NCBI GenBank assembly: GCA_016929435.1
Contig: JAFGIV010000020.1
Span: forward strand, 1-42,881
DNA from: Candidatus Uhrbacteria bacterium
Lineage (GTDB): Bacteria; Patescibacteriota; Patescibacteriia; SG8-24
Direction of reading: 5' to 3'
Length of the DNA stretch: 42,881 nucleotides
A model generated the notes under the pieces. The model saw nothing but the letters and a program-made list of their open reading frames with translations. It did no database searches and had not been told where the DNA came from. Position 1 is the first letter of the stretch, and each line of letters starts with the position of its first letter. Both the position numbers and the translations under genes were made by a program. This document shows positions 4,170 to 10,211 of the stretch, piece by piece.

Positions 4170-4214
4170 AGGGATCGGTTTTGTGGGAATTGGGATTCAG
4201 TCGGCGATTTTTAA

Positions 4215-4223
4215 ATTATACCA
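4215..4223 (-). promoter_or_regulatory. Extended -10 promoter of tspO
   Basis: On the minus strand TGGTATAAT gives a perfect -10 hexamer (4220-4215) with the upstream TG of an extended -10 element. No good -35 is seen, as is usual for this promoter class. The 5' leader would be about 40 bases. Confidence 0.6.
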
Positions 4224-4306
4224 AAATATCGCCAGTCTTGCTTCAGCCCGACAAGAGATCGATTGATGTTAAATATGATACAATCAAATACAATCAAACC
4301 ACGCCC

Positions 4307-4648
4307 ATGGACGAATACATCAAGAAAACGACCGCGTTCCTGGAAAACGCCGCCGTAGCCAAGAGCGACCCCCATAGCCTGGAAGAGGCGTGTCGGCACG
4401 GCCAAAAACAGCTGGAGAACCTGAAACACGAGCGCCTGATCCACCTGCTCGTCACCCTCTTCTTCGCCGAGGGCGTCCTGGTCACCCTGACGCTGTTCCT
4501 GTTCCTGAAAATGACTCTTCTGCTCGTCATCTTCGCCCTGTTTCTGGCGCTCCTGATCCCGTATGTCTTCCACTACTACTTCCTGGAGAACACCTGCCGG
4601 AGGTGGTACGGTCTGCTGCGGGAAATATACGAAAGGAAGGCCGGGTGA
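4307..4648 (+). CDS. Small two-helix membrane protein of unknown function
   Basis: I do not recognise this 113-residue protein. It starts MDEYIKKTTAFLENA, has a charged helical N-terminus (residues 1-42), then two adjacent hydrophobic segments (LIHLLVTLFFAEGVLVTLTLFLFL and TLLLVIFALFLALLIPYVFHYYF), and ends with a basic tail (ENTCRRWYGLLREIYERKAG). Both termini are probably cytoplasmic. The frame is open 42 codons further upstream, but that DNA is AT-rich, carries the promoter elements and lacks coding character, so the ATG at 4307 is preferred. A TATGAT at 4274-4279 is a plausible -10. No Shine-Dalgarno is visible. Confidence 0.7.
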   Translation: MDEYIKKTTAFLENAAVAKSDPHSLEEACRHGQKQLENLKHERLIHLLVTLFFAEGVLVTLTLFLFLKMTLLLVIFALFLALLIPYVFHYYFLENTCRRWYGLLREIYERKAG

Positions 4649-4739
4649 GCCCGGTCTGGCGCAATCGGTCCGGCGGCGATGACCGCCCCATCGCGACTGT
4701 TGCCGCCACCCGGCGGGCGGCCCTTGACAAAATCGGCTT

Positions 4740-5127
4740 AACACAGAGCACGAGGAAATAGTTTGGCCCAGACGGCAAACGGGCGCAAGGAAAGGAGAAA
4801 AAAGGTGGAAAACGATTTCTAATATCGTCTGGCTCCAGACGGTAAACGGGCAAAATAATAGCCCCCCAATAAACAAAACGCCTTAGAAAGCGTCAAATGG
4901 GGCAACCAAAGAAAACTTAGCCGTCCATCCAGACGGCGTGGACGGGATGGTATCTGGGGGGGGCCTTGCGCATCCCGATACCAATCCCCTCCGCAGACAA
5001 AAACGGTCTTCTATAGGTAGGTGACTCATCGCCACAGCCTGTTACGACAGCCTGTGAGAGCGACGACGAACCTACCTCTTACCATATCCGGACGTTTTTG
5101 CCGCCGGCCCATGCCGGCGGTTTATTT
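4740..5127 (+). ncRNA. Putative structured non-coding RNA, class unknown
   Basis: No protein gene covers 4649-5268, but the plus strand folds into consecutive hairpins. These are CGTCTGG/CCAGACG (4826-4841); GCCCC/GGGGC (4861-4865/4899-4903) enclosing ACGC/GCGT (4878-4893); GCCGTC/GACGGC (4920-4937); GGTATC+GGG/CCC+GATACC (4949-4982); and AGGTAGGT/ACCTACCT (5015-5077). The last encloses TCGC/GCGA and CACAG-C-CTG/CAG-C-CTGTG with a TTACGA loop. It ends in a strong terminator (5100-5127). A 17-base element CCAGACGG(C/T)AAACGGGC occurs twice (4768, 4835). A TTGACA (4724-4729) may be the -35, but no clear -10 follows. I looked for RNase P, tmRNA, SRP and 6S signatures and found only partial resemblances. 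The 5' end is approximate. The segment 4649-4723 holds only a GC-rich hairpin. Confidence 0.5.
5100..5127 (+). terminator. Rho-independent terminator of the putative RNA
   Basis: An 8-bp GC-rich stem CCGCCGGC/GCCGGCGG (5101-5108 and 5113-5120, loop CCAT) is followed by TTTATTT. The minus strand lacks a T tract after the stem, so it terminates plus-strand transcription. No plus-strand protein gene ends nearby, which supports a non-coding transcript. Confidence 0.8.
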
Positions 5128-5268
5128 GGTTTATGCAATATGATTTCTCAAAAACTCAAAACCGCCGCTTTAGGCGACGATTTTGCATGGCTCCGGTGCT
5201 TCGGTCACGGAACAAGCCATTGGGAGCTTTCCGAGACGGCTTTTCAGATAACCCTAACGATATTTCTG

Positions 5269-7263
5269 CTAACCAGACAAGGCCGCCAAAAGAGACAAGA
5301 AAAGGTATACGCCCACCACTCCGGTTAAGAGCAACATGATTATGACTATTATGAGGGGCATTCTCGTGCCGATTGTCATACCGTACTTCCTTTCTCGCCA
5401 CTTAAAGAAAATCATGACGTAAATCAAGTAGAGTGACGGTATTGCAACGATACTGCACATTCCGACGATTTGCCAAAATAAAATTATTCTGGTCGTCAAA
5501 AATGATGCAAATTCAGGATACACGAGGCCGGGACTTAATATCGCCGAGACGAACACCAAGGCGGGCGACACCAATACCCCCAACGTCAACATGGCGGAAC
5601 GCCATCTTCCCGACTTGATGGCCACGGAAAATACGGCTACGCCAACCATGGCCAGACTTATATTGCGAATTCCGACTAGGGTCTGGTCAAAGAACGGTAT
5701 TTCAGCCAGAAAGTTGCTGGCAGAGACTGCCCAAAAAACCGCAATAGTCGTCAAGGCAACCAAGGGACCGACCCGTAAAGCCTCACTTTTCCCTAACGTC
5801 TTACGGTATATCCAAATCATTGCCGCTCCATACAAACCCAACAGAAGCAAGGCCAGATAAGTGATGGGGGAACGAAAATCTGTCCCTGCAATACGGTAAC
5901 AAATTATGCGGTCGTTTCTTTTGGATAACGATTTGCAGGTTTCTGGAGACACAGTGACAGGCGATCTGCCGTAAGGTGCGGGTAGGGGGGGGACGGATAT
6001 CTGGTCGTATAGGGCACCGACGCATTCCATGGCCATCGCCAAGATCGTGGCCCCCCGTTGGACGGATATCTGTTCGTATAGGGCACCGACGCATTTCGTC
6101 CGCATCCGCTCGTCCGGTATCATTTGGCAATATGAGACGTCGCCGGTATTGGCGGTAATGTCTTTCAGGCAGTACCACAATCCGTTATATAATCCGCTCG
6201 CCTGTAGGTTTTGCAGGTGTTCCGCCTTACATCCTAAATACTCTCCGGTCAGCACCAGTTCCCGGCAAACTTCTTTTATGCTCAAATCGCCATGGTAATC
6301 GCACAGATCCAAATCGCCGGTAGTGATGGCCGCGCTTACCATGCAGGAATCGATCATGGACGATTGGGTCAAGCATGCTTTCTCCAGCCCCGCCACGACC
6401 CCCTCAACGCACCTGTCGTATTCGTTCGGGTAAGAATCCCCGTTTATGCGGCGGCAAACATCAATGTCACTAAAAATTATTCCCGAATTAGCGAGACACA
6501 CGGATTGTTCTTCCGACTTGTCTTGCAGGTTATCGCACCGTTCGCCCATCAATTCCCGATCGACACCGTCGTTTTTCTCCATTTCAAGCAGGCAAGACTG
6601 CCATTTTTCGTTAAAGACACTTTCACCTTCCCGATCATTCATTTCGGAACACGGTCCGCCATCGAAGTTTATTGATACAGCCGCAAGACAGTCGTTTCTG
6701 CCAGAATTTCCCGTCTCAGAGCAGGACAGCATGCGTTCATGGTATCTTTTTGTGCCAAAGCTATTCCCTGCCCCAAAGACACTATCGTTCCAACAAGCGA
6801 CCCTCATCCGATCATTTTCTATGAGTGCGCACGATGACAGATTATGGTCTTTTCTGGCAATGGCATAATGACATTCGTCGACTGCCCGCAAAGATTGTTC
6901 GGCAAGACTATCGCAGTCATCATGCCCCATGTTTTCGTTCAAAAATCTCGAGTACACGAAACGGCATCCCTCGGCTTCGTGTCCGTATGACGTCCTATTG
7001 CACTCAGACAAGTCGTCGTTTCTGAACGCAAGGGACAGAAAGTAGTCAGTCCGCTTTTCTGACGGTAGAAAATTACATGCAGTAACGGTATCGAGGCTGA
7101 TTCCCCTTTCCATTATGCAGTCCGACATGTCGTCCTCCGGCAAGGACTGCGGACAAAAGTCATAGTAATCTGCGCGGATACTGTCCTCAGCGGTTTCCGG
7201 AATATTGGCGGAAACTCCCAACGGAACAAGCAGAACAATCAGGGCGATAAAAAATTTTTTCAT
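5269..7263 (-). CDS. Large cysteine-rich ectodomain protein with six C-terminal membrane helices
   Basis: This 664-residue protein is not from a family I can name. It starts with a signal peptide (MKKFFIALIVLLVPLGVSA), so I take the ATG at 7263 rather than an earlier one at 7305. The ectodomain to about residue 460 carries 28 cysteines in a loose repeat: short helical units with Cys pairs spaced about 12-18 residues, often followed by Asp/Glu-rich stretches (NDDLSEC, TGDLDLC, TGDVSYC). Near its end a 23-residue unit is duplicated (CVGALYEQISV, then CVGALYDQISV), matching a 69-bp direct repeat in the DNA. The last 200 residues hold six hydrophobic segments. It probably forms a disulfide-bonded surface domain anchored by a helical bundle. 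It lies downstream of tRNA-Gln. Codon use is less GC-rich than in its neighbours. Confidence 0.8.
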   Translation of the reverse strand: MKKFFIALIVLLVPLGVSANIPETAEDSIRADYYDFCPQSLPEDDMSDCIMERGISLDTVTACNFLPSEKRTDYFLSLAFRNDDLSECNRTSYGHEAEGCRFVYSRFLNENMGHDDCDSLAEQSLRAVDECHYAIARKDHNLSSCALIENDRMRVACWNDSVFGAGNSFGTKRYHERMLSCSETGNSGRNDCLAAVSINFDGGPCSEMNDREGESVFNEKWQSCLLEMEKNDGVDRELMGERCDNLQDKSEEQSVCLANSGIIFSDIDVCRRINGDSYPNEYDRCVEGVVAGLEKACLTQSSMIDSCMVSAAITTGDLDLCDYHGDLSIKEVCRELVLTGEYLGCKAEHLQNLQASGLYNGLWYCLKDITANTGDVSYCQMIPDERMRTKCVGALYEQISVQRGATILAMAMECVGALYDQISVPPLPAPYGRSPVTVSPETCKSLSKRNDRIICYRIAGTDFRSPITYLALLLLGLYGAAMIWIYRKTLGKSEALRVGPLVALTTIAVFWAVSASNFLAEIPFFDQTLVGIRNISLAMVGVAVFSVAIKSGRWRSAMLTLGVLVSPALVFVSAILSPGLVYPEFASFLTTRIILFWQIVGMCSIVAIPSLYLIYVMIFFKWRERKYGMTIGTRMPLIIVIIMLLLTGVVGVYLFLSLLAALSG
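5992..6095. repeat. In-frame tandem duplication, 69-bp period
   Basis: Two near-identical 35-base copies (5992-6026 and 6061-6095) start GACGGATATCTG and end CACCGACGCATT, with one difference. The 69-base period is a multiple of three and adds 23 residues to the cysteine-rich protein. Confidence 0.9.
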
Positions 7264-7338
7264 AATTTTGGTAAAAAATCTTTCCGACACGGCATACCGT
7301 CTCATTAAATTGGGTTTATAGACCCGTGTGTAGTTTTA

Positions 7339-10063: not shown

Positions 10064-10139
10064 GCCACCTTAGCTCAGATGGTAGAGCAATGCTTTCGTA
10101 AAGCAGAGGTCCCGGGTTCGATCCCCGGAGGTGGCTCCA
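10064..10139 (+). tRNA. tRNA-Thr (anticodon CGU)
   Basis: A 76-base cloverleaf has acceptor GCCACCT/AGGTGGC, D arm GCTCAGATGGTAGAGC, anticodon loop TTCGTAA (anticodon CGT), T arm CCGGG-TTCGATC-CCCGG, U73 and encoded CCA. Pair 27-43 is an A-G mismatch; the rest pairs well. It reads ACG and is six bases from tRNA-Gly, so both come from one transcript. Confidence 0.95.
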
Positions 10140-10156
10140 CGCCATAGACAAAACCA

Positions 10157-10195
10157 CAAGGCCGCCCGGTCATCCGGGCGGCCTTGGACGTTTTT
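10157..10195. terminator. Terminator shared by the tRNA pair and the foldase operon
   Basis: A 13-bp stem CAAGGCCGCCCGG/CCGGGCGGCCTTG (10157-10169 and 10174-10186, loop TCAT) is followed by GACGTTTTT on the plus strand. On the minus strand the stem is followed by TGGTTTTGT. It ends the tRNA transcript and may also catch the convergent operon ending at 10212. Confidence 0.85.
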
Positions 10196-10211
10196 CGGGT
10201 TAGGTTGCGGA

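Follow-up and report, generated by a model that had tools for sequence, protein, structure and literature searches.

A candidate structured 3' untranslated region downstream of a small membrane-protein gene in a compact Candidatus Uhrbacteria genome

The window analysed here, i.e., the whole 42,881-nucleotide stretch of Candidatus Uhrbacteria DNA, includes between positions 4649 and 5122 a non-coding stretch that contains no protein gene, folds strongly, carries a repeat beyond chance expectation and ends in a rho-independent terminator of the plus strand. It directly follows mem113, a small plus-strand gene for which no terminator of its own was found. The reading that we favour, tentatively and at somewhat less than even confidence, is that this stretch is a lineage-restricted structured 3' UTR of mem113, or a small RNA derived from this 3' UTR. 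An independent small-RNA gene ranks second and a structured spacer third.

The locus and its neighbours

The interval from 4649 to 5268 (620 nt), located between mem113 and an opposing gene, is the longest gene-free one in a rough gene map of the window, as the preliminary description of this DNA had proposed. No plausible ORF was found in 4740-5127, and the six frames of 4650-5268, searched with stops as X as a pseudogene check, gave no match in Pfam. The features of the locus are the following:

4307-4648, plus strand: mem113, small membrane-protein gene (113 aa), an ORF with homologues in two genomes, adjoining the stretch upstream and probably the origin of its transcript
4649-5122, plus strand: non-coding stretch bounded by the mem113 stop and the terminator, a candidate for a structured 3' UTR or a small RNA (fold z -5.0)
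4768-4784, plus strand: module copy 1, CCAGACGGCAAACGGGC
4823-4844, plus strand: predicted hairpin with module copy 2 (pair probabilities 0.86-0.99)
4835-4851, plus strand: module copy 2, CCAGACGGTAAACGGGC, its 5' part forming the 3' arm of hairpin 4823-4844
4848-4864, plus strand: small predicted hairpin, GGGC / A-rich loop / GCCC (pair probabilities 0.98-1.0)
4920-4937, plus strand: predicted hairpin with a third, partial CCAGACGG (pair probabilities about 1)
4938-4994, plus strand: long predicted hairpin (most pair probabilities >0.9)
5015-5077, plus strand: terminal predicted hairpin with internal loops and a C-C mismatch (most pair probabilities near 1)
5100-5130, plus strand: rho-independent terminator, hairpin 5100-5121 with tail TTATTTGGTT, the only plus-strand terminator found in 4200-5300
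5157-5185, minus strand: terminator-like hairpin of the converging gene, found by terminator scan
5269-7305, minus strand: opposing, converging gene (678 aa), with no Pfam or NCBIfam family

The idea of a free-standing RNA rested initially on the absence of any upstream plus-strand gene, a claim that was wrong, mem113 being located directly upstream. Its product matches no family in Pfam or NCBIfam, and it is considered a real gene because homologues exist in two other genomes of the same class, G030 (39% identity, E 3e-13) and G049 (31%, E 2e-4). In G030, other reading frames lie directly after the mem113 homologue and no comparable stretch is present; the 3' UTR is thus not a conserved partner of mem113. 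The opposing gene carries an internal duplication at 5959-6098, where GGACGGATATCTGKTCGTATAGGGCACCGACGCATTYC occurs twice, so that the encoded protein repeats 'CVGALY(E/D)QISV'.

Thirteen ftsX loci of relatives were compared. A tRNA-Gln follows ftsX in most of them, and most genomes of the family show the order ftsE-ftsX then tRNA-Gln, with tspO coming next in G007 and G009 (within about 170 bases of the tRNA in G009). Since tspO follows tRNA-Gln there, the gene 5269-7305, the stretch and mem113 sit between two genes that are adjacent in those genomes. No counterpart of the stretch was detected at the syntenic loci by nhmmer or by R1, a covariance model built from the single sequence; one 13-bit match located after a tRNA (L044) was taken as chance. 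The tRNA-Gln located after ftsX in G007 has truncated copies of itself as flanks (L038 2900-3300), an arrangement suggestive of repeated integration or recombination events at that gene. No att-like duplication of tRNA-Gln was found in the window.

Folding, transcript ends and the duplicated module

The folding statistics support a structured and terminated RNA of the plus strand. The predicted minimum free energy of 4740-5127 (-143.1 kcal/mol) lies beyond that of all dinucleotide shuffles (z -6.0; z -4.8 with other shuffles), and the fold keeps a z of -4.1 once the terminator is removed and remains significant whether or not the upstream 90 nt are included. Among 726 windows of 120 nt, taken on both strands of the 42.9 kb, the lowest z (-6.0) is that of 4901-5020 on the plus strand, narrowly followed by 10081-10200, which contains a tRNA gene. 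The signal comes from the 3' half, as the 5' part (4740-4925) folds weakly on its own (z -1.8). The middle region reaches z -4.8 on the plus strand versus -2.0 on the minus strand, whereas the hairpin 5015-5077 is almost as stable on the minus strand as on the plus strand. The A-rich loops are no richer in A than those of folded shuffles.

Six elements (the hairpins 4823-4844, 4848-4864, 4920-4937, 4938-4994 and 5015-5077 and the terminator 5100-5121) return when the fold begins at 4649. A long-range pairing between module copy 1 and 4879-4904 reaches a probability of only about 0.6 and shifts with the assumed 5' end; it is therefore not relied on here. The strong folding into several hairpins that had been announced is borne out by z values of -4.8 to -6.0 and by the pair probabilities, including those near 1 of the ordered terminal hairpin, and the terminator proposed at the end is also recovered, with its hairpin at 5100-5121 and its tail.

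No plus-strand terminator was found between the mem113 stop and 5100, and no site meets the criteria of a scan for sigma-70-like promoters that could serve a separate RNA. The best promoter-like scores near 4740 are 8 of 12, which is ordinary for this window. A perfect TTGACA is present at 4724-4729, but no matching -10 box is found 15-19 bases from it. In the region upstream of mem113, promoter-like scores do not exceed 8 of 12 either. Owing to the lack of a plus-strand terminator before 5100 and of a qualifying promoter, the simplest transcript would be that of mem113 extended by a structured 3' UTR of 470 nt.

The 17-base motif CCAGACGG(C/T)AAACGGGC occurs in two copies, at 4768-4784 and 4835-4851, with the spacing of 67 bases that had been reported, and a third, shorter CCAGACGG copy is found at 4929. 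When one mismatch is allowed, none of 1000 dinucleotide shuffles reaches a repeat of 17 bases, their maximum being 15. With both strands searched, near-matches to the motif and to its complement elsewhere in the genome do not rise above control level, so neither a target set nor further copies are visible. A pattern scan of genome contigs with both motif cores was swamped by ACGGYAA heptad repeats and is uninformative; scans of viral contigs gave only dispersed matches, and the loci matched in one of these scans gave no covariance-model match. Tandem ACGG(C/T)AA heptanucleotide arrays are carried by many unrelated bacteria (Niastella, Bacteroidales and others; L048, L057, L079, L087, L149, L165 among other loci). 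The pattern scan also revealed, in Desulfamplus magnetovallimortis, a repeat of about 73 bases (ACGGTAAACGGTCATGGCTG...CCACCCCCGAATATG) that is dispersed on several contigs (L056, L076, L078, L083, L105, L163).

Known RNA families and search for relatives

At gathering threshold, Rfam 15 finds only four tRNAs in the whole window. With permissive filters and E values up to 10, cmscan of 541 bases at this locus gave nothing credible, the best sub-threshold score being 13.7 bits for a cutoff of 45. The stretch was initially suspected to be a housekeeping RNA that had diverged strongly (RNase P, tmRNA, SRP, 6S or group II intron). It resembles bacterial RNase P RNA (RF00010) by its similar length and by two strings reminiscent of that RNA, GAGGAAA and ACGGTAAAC, both of which are indeed present. 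However, the class A model RF00010 has no match at the locus at E up to 10, and the genuine RNase P RNA is found elsewhere in the genome (G000:C10:64663-65127, 141 bits with the covariance model). The tmRNA model (RF00023) does not match the locus either, where ARAGORN makes no call, and the genuine tmRNA lies at G000:C17:87953-88346 (135 bits). Furthermore, nhmmer reveals no similarity between the stretch and these two RNAs of the genome. The models of 6S RNA (RF00013) and of the small SRP RNA (RF00169) match neither the locus nor the rest of the genome, which leaves these slots formally open; the genome-wide SRP negative is that of the small model RF00169, as distinct from the large model RF01854. 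None of the suspected families was found at the locus, and the housekeeping explanation, already largely refuted, appears extremely improbable.

Comparison by blastn with 95 relatives, nine of them being further genomes of the family, returned only the stretch itself, and comparison with phages and plasmids returned nothing. Model R1 is a weak probe whose silence is not proof of absence. It recovered only the stretch itself in 12 genomes of the order; when applied to the class (381 genomes) and to the phylum (380 genomes), it returned chance-level matches in addition to the stretch. Two of its matches were rejected because, with about 760 genomes searched, their E values are no better than chance: L175 (per-genome E 0.0027), which overlaps the start of an antisense ORF, and L325 (per-genome E 0.0055), which overlaps coding frames that we take to be those of a small protein and a PIN-like toxin. 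The collection searched includes no close relatives of the same genus. As neither blastn, model R1 nor the syntenic locus provided a homologue, there is no covariation to judge and a new RNA class cannot be shown. That the stretch represents a class not described before, in which a large, structured and free-standing bacterial RNA is organised around the duplicated CCAGACGGYAAACGGGC module, with one species so far, seems improbable.

Possible origins and roles of the stretch

If the stretch belongs to mem113, a plus-strand mRNA would start in the promoter region of mem113 and stop at the terminator 5100-5121, and the stretch would form its long and structured 3' end. The stable 3' hairpins would protect this RNA, which might be processed to a stable small RNA, and the duplicated module, one copy of which is on a stable hairpin, could be where it acts, either by binding a protein or by base pairing to a target RNA. 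That the stretch is transcribed, that its RNA is processed and that the module plays this role are all inferred. The points that count against this reading are the weak 5' half, the low promoter-like scores upstream of mem113, the lack of such a stretch in G030 and the lack of any homologue.

The stretch could also be an independent, lineage-restricted small-RNA gene, equipped with a terminator and, near 4724-4764, a promoter of its own, that would act in trans through the duplicated module by titrating a protein or by base pairing. The perfect TTGACA, the strong fold with its repeat and the distance of the mem113 stop from the first stable hairpins argue for such a gene, but the missing -10 box and the control-level occurrence of the motif and its complement elsewhere make it rather unlikely. 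A little less likely still is a non-functional spacer, in which a terminator and inverted and direct repeats would fold well without any selection as RNA. The absence of a homologue in the closest relatives and at the syntenic locus, the position of tspO almost directly after tRNA-Gln in G009, the stability of the terminal hairpin on the minus strand and the ordinary A content of the loops are consistent with a spacer, whereas an energy beyond all shuffles and the best plus-strand window in 42.9 kb are not readily expected from it, and 620 nt is unusual for a compact genome (1.1 Mb, 99.9% complete).

Among known systems, 3' UTR-derived bacterial small RNAs are structured RNAs lying between a stop codon and a rho-independent terminator. 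The stretch, a candidate member, shares this position, since it extends from the mem113 stop (4648) to the terminator 5100-5121, but differs from these RNAs in having no homologue and in being unusually long (about 470 nt). Decoy RNAs of the CsrB/RsmY type are intergenic, have their own terminator and carry a repeated short motif partly on a hairpin, CsrA sites being a GGA loop. The stretch likewise combines a repeated motif partly on a hairpin, an intergenic position and its own terminator; however, it has only two full copies and a partial one, its motif is not a GGA loop and it has no Rfam match. We know of no binder of the module motif. By itself, the finding changes no picture; if real, the RNA of this stretch would add to the orphan structured RNAs from compact genomes.
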